Shown here one piece after another: positions 13,594 through 26,594 of a stretch of 27,996 nt of DNA (positions within the stretch are counted from its first letter, which is position 1; each line of letters opens with the position of its first letter). The stretch covers positions 654,469-682,464 of the forward strand of contig NW_004754897.1 in NCBI RefSeq assembly GCF_000188695.1. The letters run 5' to 3'. The translations under genes and the position numbers were made by a program. Under the pieces are notes generated by a model, which saw only the letters and a program-made list of their open reading frames with translations, made no database searches and was not told the origin of the DNA. Source of the DNA: Salpingoeca rosetta. Its lineage: Eukaryota > Opisthokonta > Choanoflagellata > Craspedida > Salpingoecidae.

Positions 13594-16500
13594 ATGATGG
13601 AAGACAACTTTGTGCTCGTGCACCACACGCACGACGAGGACATTGAGGTTGCGCATCAGAAGCAGCTGTTGAAGCAGCTGCAGCAGCGCGAGGAGAAGCG
13701 CCAAGAGCGCCTCAAACGCCAGGAGGCGAGGCTCAGGCGCCAGATGGAGAGAGAGCAAGGCATCAGCACCAGCACGGCAGACAATAACGTCTTTACCGAG
13801 GGGCAAGGGGATCAGGAGGAGCAGGAGGACGATGATGACGACGTGCCCAACGACGTGATGGTGCCGGAACTGGCGCGCAACATGTACATGCACATGCTCA
13901 TTCGCTGCAACGGCCGCGATGTCCTGCTCAAGCGTGAGATTGACGGCCCGCTCCCGCCAACGCTTGCCCGCATCGCCAAGAAGTTTAAAATGAAGGCTGA
14001 CGACGTGCGCGTGGATACGCAGGGCGCCAGCACGCCCACCCAAGCCCCGACGATCGGCGCTGAGCCTGTGAAGCGCGATGCTGTGGAGCAGCCGCAAGCA
14101 ACAACGACGACAACGCCATCCGCAGCCACAGCCGCCACCACGGCTACGGCAACGACCGCGACAGCGCCGGCTGTGCCGCAAATGATCACGGTGACGGACG
14201 AGCACGCGGAGACGCGCGTCGACGCGACGTCGCCCACCGTCGGCGCAGCAGAGGACGTGTACGGCAACCCGATCAACACGAACACCAAGGACCCGAGCAA
14301 GCTGTCCAACTACTGGGCATTCCGCCAGGGCTGTGCGCTTGTGCTGGGCGATCAGCAGCTGCCCGTGTATCACCACGCGCCGGTGGTGGTGTCGCTGTTT
14401 GTGCGCGGGTTCCCCATGGTCGGCAGCATGCTGCACCCCATGGCAACCCTGCACAACTGCACGGCCAACACCTGCAAGTGGGCGTGGTACCGCACCTCCA
14501 AGTACGTGTCGCACAAGGTCATTGAGCGCGTGGACGCGTTTGGACAGCACGCCAACATCGAGGTCTCGGAGGCGGACGGCGACGTGCTTGTGGCCACGAC
14601 CCGCCGCTACACCCCGACCGCAGACGACATTGGCCACCGCCTCATCTGCATGTGCACCCCCGTCAACGAGCTGTGCGCAGGCATCCCCGTGTGTGTCCTT
14701 GTTGGTTCGCGTGATGACACCCGCATCAACCGCCAAGACTTTTACACCAGCGGTACCGACAACAACGACAGCGGCAACGGCAACGACAACGGCAGCAGCG
14801 TTGAGACGCCAGCAGCGCGATGCCAGCGCCTGTCCCGGTCCGTGTGCGAGATGCAGCTGCACCCTGTCGTGCTTGCCCGCCACGCCTTTGCGCAGAGCCG
14901 CGAGCTCTCGCCAGGCATGATGCGCGTGGTCTCGTACAATATCCTGCACGACATGTTTTGTGATGGCACGTTTGCGCTGGAGCACCTGTACCCGTACCTC
15001 GACCCGATCCACGCCAAGACCAACTACCGCCACCGCCGCATTGCCGAGGAGATTGCAGGCTACCTGCCAGACTTTGTCTGCCTGCAGGAGGTTGGACACG
15101 CAGAGTTTCACGAGGTGCTCGAGCCACGCCTCGGTGCAGCAGGTGCGTTGCTGCTGGTGGGGCGCTGTCGGCAGTGGTTGATGGTGTGATGGTGACGGCG
15201 GTGGTGATGGTGGTGGCAGCAATGCGTTTCTGGTGGTGGCTATGTGTTTGAAGCCCGTGGTGGTGGTGGTGGTGGTGGTGGTGGTGGTGGTGGTGGTGGG
15301 ACAAGGGTGTGGCCGAAGATCGTGACAAACGACCCCACAGCGTGTTTACCATGTGCTTGCGTTACCTTTCACTGACACCCCCTCCCTCCTTTCGCCAACG
15401 ACTTGTCGATTTGACGTTCAGGTCTGCATGGCGTGTATGCGAACAAAATCAGCCAGCAGCGCTGGGGGATGGCCACGTTCTTCCGCCGTGAAAGGTACAG
15501 CATTGTGTGTGTGTGTGTGTGGTGTGTGTGTGTGTGTGTGCTTGCATTTGTTGAAGTCTCGCTCGGCGCTGAACTATTCTTGAAACCCTCCACGCCTCAC
15601 ATCCGTTTCTTGCTCACCCGATGTTCCTCTGTGCTCAATCGCCACCCCCACCACGACCACCGCCGCCACCATCATCACCATTTGCCATTTCCATCATCAC
15701 CATTCCGACCACCGCCGCCACGACGACGGCGACGACTGCGTGTCAGGTGGTCGCTGCTTGAGGCGCACCGGCTCAACCTGACGCGACAGTGGCGCGTGCA
15801 CAGCACTATTGCAAGTGTGGCATCGTCCCAGCCTGCGCTGCAGGATCAGCTTGAGAACAGCACGACCGTTGCCCAGCTGCTGCTGCTGCAGTGTGCAGAC
15901 GGCAGCCGCCACTATGACGGCCAGCTCCTGTGCGTGGTGAACTGCCATCTCTTCAGCCACCCAATGGCCCCGCACGTGCGCGTGATCCAGGCCGCCGTGA
16001 TTGCTGCGGAGATCAAGGACCGCTTTGGTGCCGTGCCCGTCATCTGGTGTGGTGACTTCAACGCCAACCCAAATGCAGCCGTTGTCCAGTTTCTTCACCA
16101 CCGCTCGGTCCGTCATCACGCTGACTTTCTTGCTTGCTTCGTGTGTGTGTGTGTGTGCGTGTGCGTGCGTGTGTGTGTGTGTGTGTGTGCGTGTGCGTGT
16201 GCGTGTGCGTGTGCGTGCGTGTGTGCACGTGGGCTGGTATGTCTTCGAACATGGTTCTTTTGAGTGCGATACCTTGAACGCTCTTGTTAACCCTTCCATA
16301 CACACACACACACGCACACAGATTGAGGAGACACACCCCGTGTGGGCGGAGGGCGCGTGCATCACACGGTTCAAGTCTGCCACAAAGGCCCAGCGCGAGG
16401 CCAACTGGCACAGCGTGCTAGGTAGCGCTGAGGTGCACATGGCTCGCTCCTACTTTGCCACGCTTGCCTCCGCGGACACGCAGTTGCTCAGCCCTGTCGC

Positions 16501-17266
16501 CATGTTCTCCTACACGGACGCGCACGGCGCTGAGGGGCTTGCGGCAACAAAGGCGTTTGGCGAGGATGCGATGCGCGCGTGCACGCAGGAGGGCGGCCTG
16601 TCGTACCAGGACTTCTTTGGAGCGCTGGTCGACCTCCGCTTGGAGGCGCCGGACCTCTTTTCCGCCCTGCAAGACAACGCCCCTCCCATCGATGACCTCC
16701 GCAGTGGCATGGGCAGCCGCACCAACAGCACAAGCGGTGGTCTTCGCAGCAGGCTCGCCTCGTCCCCGACAACAACAGTAGCGCCACACGCCGCACCAGC
16801 ACAGCAACAGCAGCAGCAAGGGGAAGAGGAGTCGTTGGCGAGCAGCAGGACACCAGATCCTGCACTGACGCGGGCTGCCATCAGCAGTGCCGCTCTCACG
16901 GTTCCATCGCCGTCCTCGCAGCACCTGCAGCTGCGTGACAGCGGCGCCAGCACCACCTCCATCGTCAGCCTTGCGTCGCGTGCGCTTGTGTCCGGGTTTG
17001 GGCTGAGCTCGTTCTCCATGGCGCTGCAGCACAACCTTGAGCTGCACTGCTCTGTTCGCCAGCCCACGTACAGTGCCGGCATCCCCGCCAAGCCCGAGCA
17101 GGTGGACTATGTCTTCTACACCCCGCAGATCCAAATGCGCATGGAGCAGCCGCCCACGTTTGCGTTTCACCACATTGAGAACGGCCTCCCCAGCGAATTC
17201 CTGCCGTCTGACCATGTTGCCTCTGTTGTCGATTTCGCGTGGAACCGCATGGCCCTGCAACAGTAA
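13594..17266 (+). CDS. PDE12: PDE12-like EEP nuclease (2',5'-phosphodiesterase/deadenylase family)
   Basis: PDE12 hydrolyses 2',5'-oligoadenylates and poly(A) tails; the animal enzyme is mitochondrial. Exons: 13594-15142, 15422-15494, 15747-16107, 16322-17266 (2928 nt, 975 aa), phases matching. ATG 13594 is followed at once by a second ATG. A charged coiled coil (about 20-57, Gln/Glu/Arg-rich) and a conserved-looking block (about 84-155) precede an Ala/Thr linker. Next comes the beta-rich PDE12 N-terminal domain (about 230-375) with YTPTADDIGHRL. The exonuclease-endonuclease-phosphatase fold starts at about 444 with VSYNILHD (N449). It continues with CLQEV (E499), VNCHLF, CGDFNAN (D644, N646), VDYVFY and PSDHV (D958, H959), so the catalytic set is complete. 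Some 130 residues (about 759-890), Ser/Gln-rich in part, are inserted before the strand preceding VDYVFY. No N-terminal targeting peptide is visible, so the location may be cytosolic. One donor is GTCCGT at 16108. Confidence 0.9.
15259..15299. repeat. (GGT)n repeat in PDE12-like first intron
   Basis: About 13 GGT units in the intron 15143-15421. A TGGTGATGG-rich flank precedes it. Confidence 0.9.
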
Positions 17267-17602: not shown

Positions 17603-17981
17603 ATGAGGTTTCTCGCAGCTACCATCGTGGCTACGGCCCTGCTCGCGACAATGGCCTCCGCCCTCAGCCCAGGTCAAACCTCGCCCAGTAACACGGACGA
17701 GGCCGATGTGTCTGGGGTTGCCGTCGATTACATTGACATTGGCAGTGCCGCATATGAGGCGTTGAACAACTTTGACACCTTCGTTGGCACCTCCGTGAGT
17801 TTGGCAGTGCTGGCGTGCTGATAGCATCGTAGAATCATGCCCTTCTTATCTCGTGTCGAACCAACACATACTAAAGCATCTGCACCGACATTGCCTCAAA
17901 CTGGCTTGCACACACGAGGCCCAACAACGCTGAAACGCTTCCCCAAGCCACGTTGCACTCTCTGTTTCCATCACCCACTCA

Positions 17982-18038
<57 letters not shown>

Positions 18039-20803
18039 AACAGCATGGTATTGTGTTCGACAAGGAGTCGCACAAGCTGATGACCCAGTACATGGCACAG
18101 CTTCTTCAAGCCCTTGACAACGCCATTGGCGAGGACATTGCTGTTGTCCGCGGGTTCCAGTCACGCCCCCAAGTCCCAACATCGGCCCCCTCACTCCTTG
18201 ATGTTGGTCGCGCCCTTCGACTTCGGTACAAAGCGGATGGCAGTGCATCCTCCGATGCCCGCCTCAGCACCCTTGCCCAGGCCTGCATCAACGCCGGCTT
18301 TGACTTTGTGGCTGTGCCCGCAGACACGACCACAGACAACTACGTCTATGTCAGCACCCCCAAGATGGACTGCGGTGACGCTGTTGCAGACCTTCTGTTC
18401 ATTCTCGATGGCTCCGGCTCTGTTGGCTCTGGCAACTTTCAGACCATGCTCAACTTTGCCCAGGAGGTGGTGTCCTTCTTCGACGTCGCACCCGACAAGA
18501 CGCGTGTTGCTGCCATGGTCTATGACAGCTCCAACTACCGCAAGTTTGATTTTGACTACATTCAGTCCGTCTCCAAGCAGCAGCTCATCAACTACTTCGA
18601 CACGTTCGCCTACCCTGATGGTGAGCGACAGAGCGGTTGACGTGATTTGCTGCTTTGGTGCAGATAATTTGGATATGAATGAATGCTGTTTGTCGGTGTG
18701 CGCCTTGAGCATCTTGACTTACACTCTCACCTCCCTCCTTGTGGGTTTCCCTGCTGCAGGTGGTACGGAGACTGGCAGCGCCCTCTCCTTTGCTCTCAGC
18801 AGCATGTTCGTCACATCCCGCGGGGTGAGCGTGTACATGTGTGTGTGTGTGTGTGCGGGTCGATGTGCGTGTTCATGTTCATGTGCTGTTTGCACATGAC
18901 CCCACAGCAAGTTCCCCAATGTGGGCGCCTGTCTTCTTTGAGCTCACACCTGTCTTGCATCTGTGTGCGCATAGGCTCGCGACTTGAGCGAGGGTGTGCC
19001 TCGTGTTGCCATTGTTATCACGGACGGCAAATCCGGCGACGATGTTTCTGCACCAGCGCAGGCCCTTCGCGACGCTGGCGTTACTCTCTATGCTGTCGGT
19101 GAGAACGGAAGTGGATAGCGTTGGGGATTCTGAGGTTGAGTTTGACGAGACGAGATAGAGGTGTGGAAGATTGTGGACACACCCAGCGGGAGTGAGCTTG
19201 CGAGGTTCATACGATAAGTATCACTCACCACTAATAAATGACACCACGCTGCAACTTCGACACGAACAGGCATCTCTGGTGCTGATGTGAGCGAGTTGAA
19301 CCAGATTGCCAGCCCACCTGTTGAGGACAACGTTGTCTTCATTGACACGTTCAGCGAGTTCTCCGCCCTTGCCTCGAAGATTTCCCGCGCCAACTGCGAC
19401 CAGCCTGCTAGTGTCTCCTCCGACATTGACGTGCGTGTGTGCGTGTGTGTGTGTGTGTGTCTGTCTGTCCAAGAGCAGACATGGGATCTCCTTCGCCTTG
19501 CTCGCCCTCTAACAACCCTTTCAATCACTGCACCATCCCTTGCTATCGTCGCTGTCGTGCAGATTGAGGTCAACAACACCTCCCCCGGTGACATCCGCTA
19601 CTACCGCCCGGACCTTGATGGGCTCACAGAGTCCGTCCTCATCGTTGTTGAAACTACCGGTGGCGCAACGTAAGTGAGAGCTAGTGTGTGTGCGCGTGTG
19701 CGTGTGTGTGTGTGGGGGGGTTGGGGGTTGGGGGGGGGGTTGGGGGAGGTGCGCAAGTGCGTGCGTGTTTGTTTCCTGCCCGAGTCGACCATCGTTGTCT
19801 CGCCTCTTTTCCTCCACACTAACACAAACACAAACACAAACACAAACACAAACACAAACACAAACACAAACACAAACACAAACACAAACACACACACACA
19901 CACTACAGTGATCTGTACGTGTCGACCAACCCCAACCCTGGTCCATTCAACTATGACTATGCTGTGGAGAACGACGACGCAATCAAGGCAGTGCTGGTGG
20001 ACAACACTGGCAACGAGGACTACTACGTGAGCGTGCGCAGCCGTTCCGACGACCCCGCAGACACCGTCAGCTACCGTGTGATAATCACCAACGCCATTTT
20101 CCAAGGCAACGCCAGCTACACCATCTACGTCAGCACCGACGAGAACGTTGCAGGCACTCCCATCTTCACGCTGCCGCCACTCCGCAGCTTCGACGTTGTG
20201 CCCTCGTTCATGTTTGACCTGTTTGGTCCGGATGAGGACAAGTTTGTGCTCGTCAACGACAGCGAGGTGGTGCTGACGGCCCCACTCGAGTTTGGCAAGC
20301 GGCACGTGGTTGCCATTGAGGGCATCGACGAAGCCAACAATCTCGCTGGCGGCATTGCCCTCAACGTCATCTACAACGAGATGCCGTGGACGGCCAGCCC
20401 CGACAATGGCCACGAGTACCAGATCAACTACCTGAAGAAGCTCAACTGGTTCGACGCCAAGGAGGCGTGCGAGGCAAACAACGCCCAGCTTGCCTCCGTG
20501 TCCTCAGTGCAGGAGAACAACTGGCTTGCCGAGCTCGCCCTCAACACCACCCTCGGCTCTGGTCTGCATCAAGCCTGGCTTGGCGGCCACTTCCCGCCCG
20601 TGTTCGCTTGGACCGACGGCTCTGCCGCCACCGACTTTGGCTTCCCGTGGAGCGTCGAGGACAACGACCCGCACGCGCACTGCCGCTTCAATTGCCTTGC
20701 CCTCAAGTTCAAGGACAAGAAGACCACGCCCGCTAGCGAGTGGAAAGATCTCCGCTGCGGTCGCAAGCGCGCGTACATCTGCAAGCGCCCCATCGCTGCT
20801 TGA
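17603..20803 (+). CDS. Secreted hedge (Hedgehog-N-like) / vWA / cadherin-like / C-type lectin protein
   Basis: Exons: 17603-17794, 18044-18620, 18760-18824, 18975-19098, 19270-19430, 19563-19669, 19909-20803 (2121 nt, 706 aa), all phases matching. The first 20 or so residues form a signal peptide with a likely cut after MASA. Residues about 45-175 resemble the Hedgehog N-terminal signalling domain, seen in [13 protein letters not shown], then [13 protein letters not shown] and [14 protein letters not shown] vWA domain (about 180-355) has an intact MIDAS: DGSGS at 186-190, GGTETG and ITDGKSGDD. The next region (about 365-465) is a beta-sandwich resembling those after vWA domains. About 465-565 resembles one degenerate cadherin repeat (APLEF, then [12 protein letters not shown]). 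A C-type lectin domain (about 575-704) has AWLGG, FAWTDGS, WKDLRC and YIC. No membrane segment or Hint domain is seen, so it should be soluble and extracellular. Role unknown; adhesion or matrix function is inferred from domains. Confidence 0.82.
17981..18036. repeat. (CA)n microsatellite in hedge-vWA gene intron 1
   Basis: A pure CA tract ending a few bases before the acceptor AG at 18042-18043. Confidence 0.95.
19714..19748 (+). other. Second intronic G-quadruplex-prone tract
   Basis: Runs of 5 or more G with TT loops, about 45 bases after the GTAAGT donor at 19670 in the hedge-vWA gene and on its coding strand. The pattern matches the tract at 1761-1793. Confidence 0.75.
19821..19904. repeat. 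(ACAAAC)n hexamer repeat grading into (CA)n
   Basis: About 11 units of a CA-variant hexamer, followed by pure CA and then the acceptor AG at 19907-19908 of the hedge-vWA gene's last intron. Confidence 0.92.
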
Positions 20804-20882
20804 GCCGCAGCATAGGGTGGAGTTTGCCGCATGGAACGGCAAAGACTTCTCGACTACTTGGCGTTGTCTTGCTCTTGTGATG

Positions 20883-20907
20883 TCAGAGTTCACTTGCTTT
20901 CTCTCTC

Positions 20908-21001
<94 letters not shown>

Positions 21002-23138
21002 GGGGACGCTCGTATCCCGATTCGCTATCAGTACACCACAAGCTGCTTTCATTTCTGGTTTCCACTCCAAGTAAGTGAGGGATGCTCGAGACACACTAAA
21101 GGGGGAGGAGGGAAGCATACACAATCAAGCACACATCAAGTGCAGCGGACACGAAAAGGGATGAAGAGCCGGCACGATGCATGGTCACCATGTTGGCACG
21201 ATTGCACTTCTTTGCTTCTCACTACAACAAACTCGCGCAGCGCCAGCATCGTCATCCACTTCAGCAGCACGTCATCGCAGTAGTCGCTGTGGTGCAGCTG
21301 CCTCATCTGACAGGCCACCAGGCTCAGCGCAATGGCCGTCATTAATGACAGCTTGAAGTCGAGGCCCGGCTCCAGGTTGTTGGCGTCCAGAAACGCAACC
21401 AGGTCGCGCGGCTCCAAGCGCGGGTGCAGCTGCTGGCATGTTCCATGTGGTGGCGTGATGGTGGTTATGCTTATCGATGCGCCTACAGTGTGTGTGTGTG
21501 TGTGTGTTGGGGACGCTCGTATCCCGATTCGCTATCAGTACACCACAAGCTGCTTTCATTTCTGGTTTCCACTCCAAGTAAGTGAGGGATGCTCGAGACA
21601 CACTAAAGGGGGAGGAGGGAAGCATACACAATCAAGCACACATCAAGTGCAGCGGACACGAAAAGGGATGAAGAGCCGGCACGATGCATGGTCACCATGT
21701 TGGCACGATTGCACTTCTTTGCTTCTCACTACAACAAACTCGCGCAGCGCCAGCATCGTCATCCACTTCAGCAGCACGTCATCGCAGTAGTCGCTGTGGT
21801 GCAGCTGCCTCATCTGACAGGCCACCAGGCTCAGCGCAATGGCCGTCATTAATGACAGCTTGAAGTCGAGGCCCGGCTCCAGGTTGTTGGCGTCCAGAAA
21901 CGCAACCAGGTCGCGCGGCTCCAAGCGCGGGTGCAGCTGCTGGCATGTTCCATGTGGTGGCGTGATGGTGGTGGTGGGGAGGAGAGATTGGTGGTTGGTG
22001 TGATGAGTGGAAGTTGTGTGTATCAGCAGTAGTCGTGGTGGATGGGAGTCACAAACAGACAGAGACAGACAGGCACACACACACACACACACACAGACAC
22101 ACAGACAGACACACACACACACACACACCTGTAGCCGATGAAGACGTCGTATCACTCCTGCAGGCCGAGGACTGGCAGGAGAGGACCATACTTGGGCGAC
22201 CAAGTCATTGGGCGACAGCAGGTGTTCGTCAACCCACAGCCGCGTCCTGTCGACGTGGAGCACGCTGTTTTCACCTGCAGAGAGTACAGCAGGTGGAGAC
22301 GAACATGCGTTGTGAGTTGGAGATGAGCGGTTAGAGAAGGTCAACACGACTGCTGGTGTAGGTTGTTGACCCATCACACATGCACCCGCTCGCACACACA
22401 GCGGCTGCAAGGATATACACGTGCGTGCCAAGAAAGACAGCGCATGGCAGCCGCCTCCAATGACAGCTGGGTGCCCACGCTCACTTGAGTTGCGTGACAG
22501 CCGTGTTGTGCGTCAGCGCGTCTGCCAACGCCACAGCACCGTCCGGTGCAAGCTGTCAACATGCAAAGCAGTGGTCACTGGTAACGACGGAAAAGAGGAG
22601 CAAGGGGAGGGATCGTGAGTGGCAAGCGAAGGGGGTAGAAGGGTACACTGACATCACACACGGGCTTCAGCCACTGGCTTCAGGTGTGCTGTGCCACAGC
22701 GTGGCATTGCGCTCAGCCATGAACTGGGGGTGGGCTGTGCAATCACAACACACGCCAACGACACTTCTCTCCCATGCATGGGTTGTGTCAAGACTCACTT
22801 GAGCCGCGCGATGGTCGCATTGTGCTTCAGCCCTTGTGCCAACGCTGTAGCGCCCTCGGGGCTGATGTGGTTGCTGCTCAGGCTGTAGCCCCACAACCAA
22901 AACCACGATGGTGGGAGGGGAGGGGAAAGGGAAGGTAGGGGTGGTTGGTCATGAGCCAAGGGCGAAGGCAGCACGAGGAACATGACATGGCATGATGGAA
23001 GCGGTGCGCATGACGGTAGCTGCTGAATCAGTGGCGCGTGTCGCATGCAATCCATATGTGCACGCACGCACGCACTCGAGTCTTGTGACGGTGGTGTTGT
23101 CCTTGACAGCCACTGCAAGTGCGCGCATTCCACCATCG

Positions 23139-23170
<32 letters not shown>

Positions 23171-23343
23171 TGTCATCCCTTGGTCACCTCACTCACGTTT
23201 GTAGAAGCGTACGGATTCAGGCTGGATATGTCGTTGTCACCAGTTTGGATATAACGAAGTTCACATTTCTCGATCTGTCTGCGGCTACTGAGTATTATTC
23301 GATGTACGTGCGATACGGCAAGTGCGCGCATTCCTACCACTCG

Positions 23344-23377
<34 letters not shown>

Positions 23378-23639
23378 TTGGCACAGTAAACAGGACGCGA
23401 CGGCGTTCTGACAACGAGGCGAGGCAAGCACAGCAAGCCAAGCCGGACGCTCGACTCGAACTGTTGCAGACAACACACAACACACACACTCACACACACG
23501 CACTCACTCACTTTGCGCGTGGCTCAGACGTGTTGTTGGCGATGGCGCGAATCAGGTCCTTTACCTCCTCATCTTCGATCTGCGTCTGCACCAACAGGCC
23601 CTCCACCTCCTCGCTCACTGTCTTCTGTCCGCCGGACAT
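20883..23639 (-). CDS. Leucine-rich-repeat protein (ribonuclease-inhibitor type repeats) with unidentified C-terminal region
   Basis: Minus-strand gene starting at ATG 23637-23639. Exons 23512-23639, 23076-23138 and 22799-22882 join in phase and give LRR units: DLIRAIANNTS, DGGMRALAVAVKDNTTVTRL, then LDLSSNHISPEG and ATALAQGLKHNATIARL. A further LRR exon (22485-22552; GAVALADALTHNTAVTQL) joins in phase to 22129-22264, then to the phase-0 exons 21730-21939 and 21223-21432, which are identical copies. The link from 22799 to 22552 is unsolved, because phases do not match directly; a missed small exon or an error is possible. The C-terminal exons (WVDEHLLSP, EPRDLVAFLDANNLEPG, DDVLLKWMTMLALREF) are helical and not recognised. 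The last exon probably begins at 21095; its end is unclear because the sequence runs into a long microsatellite, and 20883 is the furthest in-frame stop. The 3' end faces the hedge-vWA gene about 80 bases away. No signal peptide or membrane segment is seen. Confidence 0.6.
20911..21000. repeat. (GT)45 microsatellite
   Basis: A pure GT tract of 90 bases that abuts the left edge of the first copy of the tandem duplication. On the minus strand, the sense of the LRR gene, it reads CA. Confidence 0.97.
21001..21972. repeat. Perfect 465-bp tandem duplication (offset 507)
   Basis: The segment 21001-21465 recurs at 21508-21972. I compared the two base by base and found no difference, in exon or intron. 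The copies are separated by 42 bases: 23 unique bases (21466-21488) and a short TG tract. Each copy contains the complete 210-bp exon of the minus-strand LRR gene (21223-21432 and 21730-21939), its splice sites, the following intron and the start of the next exon. Divergence begins after the shared GTGATGGTGGT. Confidence 0.95.
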
Positions 23640-24402
23640 GGCCGATGATGGAGTTGGTGGGGCTGCTGTGCGTGGCGGTGGTGCTTGAAGGTCGTGTCGT
23701 CAACGGCGGTTTGACCGAAATTCCAAACAGCCAACGGTTGACAAAACCGGACGAGACACTGGCTGCTGCACGAACAACAAGTCAACGCAAAGGTGAGGTG
23801 GAGGGGGTGAGGTGCAGTGAGGGGAGGTGTCATTGGTGGTGTTGTGCGTGCCACGTTCCTTCCTTCCTTCCCCTTCTTCGTCCTCGCTGACGCATTCACA
23901 CACATTCACACATGCAGGGAGGGTGTACACACCGTCTCTCTTCTCCCTTCTCCCTTCCATCCATCCTTCCATCGTTGTCCATTTCCTTCTCCTGTGATGA
24001 ACCACGCACAACCAACCAACCAACCAACGACCACATGAATGACACATCTATCGACAGGTGAGACTTTTTCCTCCCACTCCGTGCTCCTCTTCCCCTTCTT
24101 CTCCTTGCACACTGCGCACAGCAACAACAACCACCACCATCAACAACAACAACACCACAGCGTACGCTGTCACCGTGCACACACACATGTGGACCACAAT
24201 CCGTGCATCCATGGGTGGTTGGATCACAACCAACACACCACTGCGTGTGGCACTCACAACTGCACACACACACACACACTTGCTCACCGTTGTGTGGTGA
24301 CAGAACAACTGCCATCAGCCACCGTCATGCAGCGGCGACCCTGAGAATGGATCATGCAACCTCTCAACCAGTGAGCAGCACACACATGAGAGAGAGGGGG
24401 AA
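23640..24402. other. Upstream region of the LRR gene, no clear gene
   Basis: About 760 bases before a weak plus-strand gene. It contains a CCTTCCTTCC pyrimidine-rich stretch (23857-23877), CTTCTCCCTTC repeats (23938-23960), an ACCAACCAACC run (24010-24027) and a CAACAACAACAAC patch near 24140. A possible tiny exon (ATG 24035 to GTGAGA at 24058) was seen but cannot be linked to anything. The LRR gene's promoter should lie here; no specific element was recognised. Confidence 0.4.
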
Positions 24403-24427
24403 ATGACATCAACCAACATCACAGCCA

Positions 24428-24471
<44 letters not shown>

Positions 24472-26594
24472 ACGAGTTGTGTTCCTTCTCATCCTCCTGC
24501 CTTCTCCTCCTTTCTGTCTGTGACACGCTGGTCACTGTTGTTGTTGTTGCTTGTTGCTTGCTTGTTTGTTGTGGGTGTAGATGGATGTCTTCCATCATCA
24601 TCATCATCAGCAGCAGCAGCAGCAGCAGGTGCTGGCTGATGCGTGAGGCAGTGGGCAACCCCCACCAACCAACCCACAAACGACTACATGCTGACGGATG
24701 AATGGTGATCCAACCACTGCATCACCCAGACAGTTGTGCATGTGTGTGTGTGTGTGTGTCGACGTGCACGTGCTCTTCTCCACCCATCCACACGCCATCA
24801 TCACCACCTCCTCATGTTCTTGTGTGTTTGCTCACATCCTTCCCTTCCCACCCTCAACACCACCACCACCACCACCCTCCACGCTTGCTTGTTTCCCCTT
24901 CCTTCCTTCTGCTGTTGCCGCACACAGGGCCTTGAGCCAGAAGCTGTCACCCCTCCACCAACCACCGCTGCTCTCGTGGGATGAACAGACGAGCATTGCC
25001 ATGTAATGGTCATCCAGCCACGCCTGTGCGGCTGTGGAAACAGCAACACCAACACACACCACACCACAAGCAAGCGATGAACAACGTGAGTGCATCTCTC
25101 CATGTGCGTGTGTATGCTGCGCACCGCACCAGTGTGCGTGTTTTGTGCTCGCTGTCTCTGTTTCTCCTGTCTCCCCTTGTTGTCCACATCAATGTGCATG
25201 CATGTGTGTGGTGCAGCTGCCTGTTTTGCCTTGCTTGATGCGCTGTCTCATTCGACGTTCTCACACACAACTGCCTGCACACTTGCACATTCTCCACCTT
25301 GCCGCTGCTTATATTCCCCTCTCTTCCTCGCCCTCCCTGACGGCCATCACAACAACAGCAACAACAACAACAACACCAGCAGCAGCCAACACACCCTCCA
25401 CCGCCGATGCAGCAGCAGCAGAGGATGCACCACCACCATCACTTGCTGCTGAACACATCCCCCAACCAACCAACCAAGCCATCACCCAATGCTGCTGCTG
25501 GCGGAAGCTGGCTGTTTGCAGCTGGGAACAGGTGGCGACAGCACAAGTTGCATTTTCGGCTGGAAGCAGCAGCAGAGGTGAGGGCGAGAAGAAGAGGGGA
25601 AACGGCGAAGATATGTGTTGGCTGGATGGATGGATGGATGGATGAGGTGGGGTGGGGGATGCTGGGTGAGTGTGGTGTGGTGTGGTTGGCTGGTTGGTGA
25701 CAGAGGACGGTGGTGTGGTGGTGGGGAAGAGGAATGGATGGATGGGTGGATGGAATGGGGTGCAGCATGTCTTGTTCTTTCCCTTCTGTTTTCTGTTTTC
25801 TCTCTCTTCCCTTTCTCCTCCTTCACACACAAATGCATGCACAACACCAGCAGAGGCATCAGCAGCATCAGTGTAGCTGCGCACATATTCATGCTCCCTC
25901 TTGCCCCTCACTCACTCACCACGCTGGTGCTCGCACACAAACACACTCACAGGCGATGCGCACACGCACAGGCAGGATGAGGGAAATGTCGAGGATACTT
26001 GCCACGCGTGCCAGCTGCACTCGCCTCACACATGGTATGTGGGTGGTGATGGGCGGTTGGTTGGTGGTGTGATAGGGTGCGGTGATGGTGCTGGGGTGCG
26101 GTAAAGCGAACACGAGGGAAGGGGGTTGATGGGGGGGGGTTGATGGACACACACATCGACACACACGCACACGTGTGAATGTGGTGTCAGTCACTCGTTC
26201 TGCTGTGCTGACGTGATGGCTTACTCTGTGCCTGTTGTGTTCTGTTCCCATCCACGTTCCCTGCAACCACACACACACATACATATGCACAGGTGGCGAG
26301 GTACCAGCACACATCAGGATGGTGATGGAAGCGGGCTAGCATGCCGGCTGCTGCTGCAACTTCCCCGATTCAGCTGCCGCTGCTGTGCTCATGCAGTATT
26401 CCTACATGCGTGAGCCCATCATGGATGCTTTGGTTGGCACATGGTGCATGTGTTGTTGTTGTTGCTGTGGGTGTGCTTGTTGTTGCTGCTGCTGTGTCTC
26501 GTGCACCAGTGTAGCTGTGCGACTCACATGCAATGTGTGCGTGTGTGTTATTGCGGCTGTAGGGAGCGACTGCCTGAGGATCGTTGGAGGATGA
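24403..26594 (+). CDS. Putative Gln/His-rich multi-exon gene, weak support
   Basis: A phase-consistent chain can be read: 24403-24429, 24581-24642, 24941-25085, 25359-25577, 25953-26034, 26374-26409, 26563-26594 (603 nt, 200 aa, stop 26592-26594). Support is indirect. TG tracts follow candidate donors on the plus strand, as in the confirmed genes, several donors are GTGAG, and the reading frame stays open. The protein would have His and Gln runs, a Cys/His-containing segment (HRCSRGMNRRALPCNGH), a proline/Gln stretch and a helix crossing two exons (KLHFRLEAAAE then AMRTRTGRMREM). No family is recognised. Individual exons, especially 24581-24642 and the last one, could be chance. Other blocks downstream (26640-26697, 26969-27085) also look partly coding and may belong to a longer version. 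Polyglutamine of this kind is common in transcription regulators, but no function is claimed. Confidence 0.28.
24430..24471. repeat. (GT)n microsatellite
   Basis: A pure GT tract that would begin exactly at a possible donor of the Gln/His-rich gene. Confidence 0.9.

Follow-up and report, generated by a model that had tools for sequence, protein, structure and literature searches.

The choanoflagellate Salpingoeca rosetta possesses a gene, PTSG_10931, encoding a secreted protein in which a Hedgehog-like (Hh-like), a vWA and a C-type-lectin-like domain occur together, and our analysis confirms that this observation is real. We suggest that the product is a secreted hedgling paralogue with a lectin-like tail, acting as an extracellular multidomain adhesion or matrix protein; we give this reading a probability of about 0.6. 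All positions refer to the window, that is, the whole stretch of 27,996 nucleotides that was analysed.

A seven-exon gene for a secreted multidomain protein

Joining GT/AG sites gave seven exons (17603-17794, 18044-18620, 18760-18824, 18975-19098, 19270-19430, 19563-19669 and 19909-20803), and the 706-aa database protein PTSG_10931 is 100% identical over the whole query, as it is over residues 36-176. The database names it either hypothetical protein or C-type lectin domain-containing protein. A spliced aligner fed with this protein reproduced identical exons, and with the spliced model and the database protein in agreement, the initial annotation is right about the coordinates, the number of exons, the length and the order of domains. 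The features are as follows.

17603..20803, + strand: gene PTSG_10931, Salpingoeca rosetta (seven exons, 706 aa; GT/AG splicing, database protein, spliced aligner)
17603..17665, + strand: signal peptide, residues about 1-21 (residues 3-21 have a hydropathy of 2.0; cleavage site placed by eye)
17699..17794, + strand: conserved N-terminal stretch, like the hedgling's EADASGVILEFI (alignment with the hedgling)
18044..18379, + strand: Hedgehog-N-like domain, residues about 65-176 (genome search, Pfam, family profiles, hedgling alignment)
18389..19370, + strand: vWA domain, residues 180-353, with introns inside (PF00092, E 5.2e-44)
19563..20107, + strand: unnamed beta-rich region, residues 374-475, with an intron inside (alignment; the hedgling has the same region)
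20108..20407, + strand: degenerate cadherin-like repeat, residues about 476-575 (lines up with the beginning of the cadherin region in the hedgling)
20438..20788, + strand: C-type-lectin-like domain, residues 586-702 (PF00059, E 2.9e-9; DNA-level call at the same bases)

We rejected the idea that two genes had been fused artefactually, since the database model agrees and exon lengths are common to the paralogues (three exons, of 65, 124 and 161 bases, have the same size in each of the four modelled genes), a judgement made from gene models. The upstream gene (13600-17266, same strand) contains the motifs MRVVSYNILHDMF, DFVCLQEVG and GDFNANP; from these motifs only, we take it to be of the endonuclease/exonuclease/phosphatase family, perhaps a PDE12/Angel-type nuclease. 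Just past PTSG_10931, a 300-bp stretch occurs twice (20981-21280 and 21488-21787) with 100% identity and a spacing of 507 bp, which represents either a recent tandem duplication or an assembly artefact.

A Pfam scan of the whole protein returned VWA (180-353) and Lectin_C (586-702), both above cut-off, bearing out the vWA and terminal lectin domains first read from the sequence. The MIDAS of the vWA domain (D186-x-S188-x-S190, T259/T261, D295) is intact, as had been claimed, and its residues are invariant in all four aligned rows (PTSG_10931, its paralogues at loci C36 and C41, and the hedgling). The paralogue at C35, outside this alignment, reads DSSGD at the site, so the MIDAS is not preserved in every family member. 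Beyond residue 30 the maximum 19-residue hydropathy is 1.15, and thus no membrane segment is predicted; we rejected a membrane anchor because no stretch after the signal peptide is sufficiently hydrophobic, and secretion by a signal peptide stands as proposed. The same holds for the missing Hint domain, the Pfam scan of the protein having found no Hint/Hog domain. Unlike the large transmembrane hedglings, PTSG_10931 has 706 aa with no hydrophobic stretch after the signal, and instead of multiple cadherin repeats it has one degenerate repeat, recognized by alignment alone. The expectation of at most one cadherin-like repeat therefore holds in so far as a repeat aligns to the hedgling, but Pfam found no match to PF00028 in the protein. 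The region at residues 374-475 has weak PPC similarity in the Pfam scan (E 1.6), and its strands appear only in a low-confidence predicted model.

Homology to the Hedgehog N-terminal domain

The initial annotation had placed a Hedgehog-N domain at residues 45-175. Family profiles support the domain, although with limits of about 65-176 and with a PF01085 score below the Pfam cut-off when it is scanned alone (13.1 bits, E 0.079, cut-off 22.1); HH_signal is not listed in the scan of the whole protein. This sub-threshold score would fit a chance or convergent similarity, in which case PTSG_10931 would be merely a vWA-lectin protein, and the AlphaFold models, with a mean pLDDT of 48 for the whole protein (five other vWA proteins served as extra alignment rows) and 43 for the domain alone (no residue above 70), are uninformative. 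The relatives of the domain nevertheless speak strongly against chance. In the genome it matches at least six places including its own locus: C36 (63% identity), C41 (45% and 43%), C35 (40%) and C3 (32%, E 8e-4); this and our other genome counts are lower bounds, scores having been computed only for the best first-look candidates. C3 (1734799-1735203) is the only PF01085-positive place found in the genome (E 7.5e-15), and Pfam recognizes HH_signal (E 4e-15), VWA and cadherin in its hedgling frame. Direct matches between the Hh-like domain and this HH_signal locus reach E 8e-4 and 1e-3. Scanned singly, three of the six family members give an HH_signal match (Pfam, E up to 10).

A profile built from six S. 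rosetta domains retrieved hedgehogs from the PDB with a best E of 3.9e-10, and 25 of the 27 matches listed were hedgehogs. Because one of the six rows is itself the hedgling (and the two C41 rows are nearly alike), we repeated the search without it. The best E values were then 0.014 (four rows) and 0.013 (five rows), with hedgehogs making up 24 of the 25 matches listed each time; the single exception was 2-isopropylmalate synthase. Taken alone these E values are marginal, and to that extent they leave room for chance. The hedgling-free profile, however, gives the hedgling domain 27.7 bits, whereas no score among 5000 shuffles exceeded 9.6. Moreover, the Hh-like domain adjoins a vWA domain as in hedglings, and a single alignment runs collinearly with the hedgling over residues 16-523, some 500 residues, with 29.5% identity (E 5e-45). 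In view of the family profiles, the shuffle comparison and this collinearity we rejected chance similarity, which is strongly disfavoured and can hardly be right. Judging from the comparisons of sequence, with all lines taken together, we regard the homology of the domain to Hedgehog-N as settled.

A hedgling paralogue in a family of exchanged tails

The collinearity over residues 16-523 identifies PTSG_10931 as a hedgling paralogue in which a lectin replaces the cadherin and membrane tail; as in hedglings, vWA directly follows an N-terminal Hh domain. The kinship to hedglings claimed at the outset is thereby upheld. The further idea of an unusual relative of the Hedgehog ancestor is not; the evidence points to a local hedgling paralogue whose tail has changed and whose zinc-ligand positions are replaced, and not to an independent relative of that ancestor. 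The C3 hedgling has Hh, vWA and cadherin in one open frame of 1293 aa, in contrast to the intron-rich small paralogues, and many Cys-rich repeats lie downstream in this long hedgling-type gene. Our genome searches with PF01085 and Hh-domain queries, which scored the best candidates, did not recover the second hedgling described in 2013.

We made spliced models for three paralogues, namely C36, one of the C41 pair, and C35. The C36 paralogue has the same architecture as PTSG_10931, including a terminal lectin-like domain, which scores 21.4 bits on the spliced model, slightly short of the 22.6 cut-off, and 25.3 bits, above it, from DNA. C41 holds two near-identical Hh-vWA genes, at about 127.5 kb and 269.4 kb, both of which run into N; the readable copy continues in a long, extracellular-looking frame, without lectin similarity to PTSG_10931, into N. 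The C35 copy has a Ser/Thr-rich tail, and the stretch past its frame runs into N. At C31, PTSG_09829 copies the 3' half of PTSG_10931 in truncated form, with 98.8% identity over residues 622-703; our genome search with the PTSG_10931 domain found no Hh match on C31. At the DNA level, positions 19225-26031 of the window (the gene's 3' portion with some 5 kb beyond it) correspond to C31 780000-789900 with 83-94% identity in pieces, and the C31 counterpart contains a 5'-truncated relative, taken as PTSG_09829, and a run of N.

A whole-protein search, which scored only the 7997 candidates sharing most words, listed 23 proteins; 20 were other vWA proteins (collagen VI-like, matrilin-like, integrin-like and others), uninformative on the Hh part. 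It also gave P0002, a protein of 697 aa (best S. rosetta genome match 65%) with the same head as PTSG_10931 and a membrane segment at the end. Its domain finds the same five non-hedgling places in the genome, misses C3, and weakly matches C14 as well (E 0.82, 26%). Of the 607 candidates in a protein search with the Hh-like region, PTSG_10931 itself was the sole match up to E 10, and with the hedgling Hh region none of 1674 reached E 10; the case for a relative outside S. rosetta therefore depends on P0002 by itself. As to relatives of the same architecture, the genome supplies C36, whereas P0002 shares the head only. Because that head is joined to a different, membrane tail, we conclude that tails are exchanged within a family whose head is stable.

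Relation to a published class of proteins

S. rosetta was reported to have two hedglings and five non-hedgling Hh-domain proteins, the Hh domain adjoining vWA in all of them (Fairclough et al. 2013, PMC4054682). In the account given there, four of these proteins have a membrane segment and are upregulated in thecate cells, and the other three, all small proteins that carry a signal sequence but lack a membrane segment, are consistently upregulated in colonial cells. PTSG_10931 shows the anatomy of the small secreted class (Hh next to vWA, signal sequence, small size, no membrane segment). We found at least five non-hedgling Hh loci, equalling the five reported; PTSG_10931 is thus very probably among these five and, by anatomy, one of the three small secreted proteins. 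The class and the secreted-ligand idea were therefore already known from 2013, and the initial annotation overrated PTSG_10931 as an unusual find in this species. The gene is unnamed in the main text of PMC4054682, to which our comparison extended, and its tag was not found in the literature searched, where no title or abstract start dealt with such a lectin-tailed Hh-vWA protein. That main text nowhere uses the word lectin, and the lectin-like tail was thus perhaps left undiscussed.

Binding sites and alternative roles

Alignment to Desert hedgehog shows that H, D and H, which we take to be the zinc ligands of the Hedgehog pseudo-active site, are replaced by L, R and Y in PTSG_10931; the C3 hedgling retains the first histidine only and C36 the last one only. 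The calcium-site segment VTEGWDE, where animal Hh partners bind, reads VVRGFQS with its acids replaced, and the alignment covers no other calcium ligands. With its zinc ligands replaced, the Hh-like domain is unlikely to have enzymatic activity, in agreement with published remarks that hedglings do not have a complete peptidase motif (PMC6027127, PMC8052667).

These replacements also weigh against a diffusible Hh-like ligand signalling between colony cells through a Patched-family receptor. In the genome paper, the three small colony-upregulated proteins were suggested as possible secreted ligands and Patched homologues were noted (PMC4054682), and in the S. rosetta genome we found at least two Patched-family matches above cut-off and at least three matches to Hint domains on other contigs. 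PTSG_10931 itself has no Hint, however, and hence no cholesterol addition, and there is no Cys before residue 145 and hence no N-terminal Cys of the palmitoylation type. Patched-family matches also occur in three of 14 control genomes, all archaea, and so do not demonstrate an Hh receptor. We consider a diffusible ligand of this kind quite improbable.

The C-type-lectin-like domain has the conserved cysteines (Cys 596, 667, 671, 692 and 700). Calcium-dependent sugar binding by C-type lectins relies on the motifs EPN or QPD and WND. By eye, neither Glu-Pro-Asn nor Gln-Pro-Asp is present in the domain of PTSG_10931, which has WKD where sugar binders usually have WND. Sugar binding is therefore doubtful, and the ligand is no more likely to be a glycan than a protein. 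Choanoflagellates feed on bacteria, and PTSG_10931 might be a secreted lectin that binds bacteria or prey and serves capture or defence, its vWA and Hh-like domains forming a scaffold. Such a role would suit the presence of a C-type-lectin-like domain, one of at least 23 such matches in the genome, and the duplication of lectin-bearing sequence seen in the C31 copy, which may recall arms-race families. The missing canonical sugar-binding motif and the expression of the small class, reported for colonies (PMC4054682), count against it, and we regard it as unlikely.

Proposed function and significance

We favour the adhesion or matrix reading, which is best supported by the combination of a signal peptide, an intact MIDAS, a lectin-like domain, the fit to a class reported as colony-biased and the precedent of Rosetteless, a secreted C-type-lectin-like protein described as coating and connecting rosette cells (PMC4381721). 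PTSG_10931 keeps the hedgling head, from the signal peptide to the first cadherin-like repeat, and carries the C-type-lectin-like domain where the hedgling has its cadherin array and membrane tail. The vWA MIDAS might bind one partner by way of a metal ion and the lectin-like domain a glycan or a protein, either on cells or in the matrix; the Hh-like domain might serve as a non-enzymatic binding module. A more speculative extension, which we think has a slim chance, is that PTSG_10931 and the C36 paralogue are matrix-anchored Hh-domain ligands, the lectin-like tail tethering the Hh-vWA head to the rosette matrix. This would be a form of Hedgehog-type signalling or patterning older than the Hint-processed morphogen, tethered by glycans and free of lipid.

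Hedgehog is a core animal morphogen. Its N-terminal domain has been proposed to derive from a hedgling-like Hh-vWA gene (PMC4054682), an origin that has been disputed (PMC6027127, PMC8052667). S. rosetta carries both membrane and secreted versions of the Hh-vWA cassette (PMC4054682), and a study has reported genome editing in this species (PMC7314544); whether the cassette was ancestrally adhesive or a diffusible signal is thus testable. PTSG_10931 is accordingly an important and testable subject for the origin of animal signalling.

Comparison with known systems

PTSG_10931 resembles the C3 hedgling in its N-terminal stretch, Hh and vWA domains, beta region and first cadherin-like repeat, all in the same order. 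In hedglings, which are described from choanoflagellates, sponges and cnidarians, however, cadherin repeats (21 in that of Nematostella; PMC2362128) and a membrane segment follow, whereas PTSG_10931 ends in a lectin-like domain at 706 aa. The animal Hedgehog N-terminal domain is matched by the family profile (E 3.9e-10) over about 100 residues, but animal Hedgehog has Hint, zinc ligands and calcium-site acids, whereas PTSG_10931 is without Hint and has the ligands, and the acids of one segment, replaced. The Hh-vWA class of 2013 consists of unnamed proteins, for which the section on them mentions no lectin-like tail (PMC4054682), whereas PTSG_10931 has one. Rosetteless has two lectin-like domains with Glu-Pro-Asn, a motif not present in PTSG_10931, and a role shown genetically, and neither "hedgehog" nor "von Willebrand" occurs in the main text on it (PMC4381721). 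Like PTSG_10931, however, it is a secreted, C-type-lectin-like protein of S. rosetta (PMC4381721), and the lectin-tailed version thus ties the Hh-vWA cassette to a kind of protein known to build rosettes.
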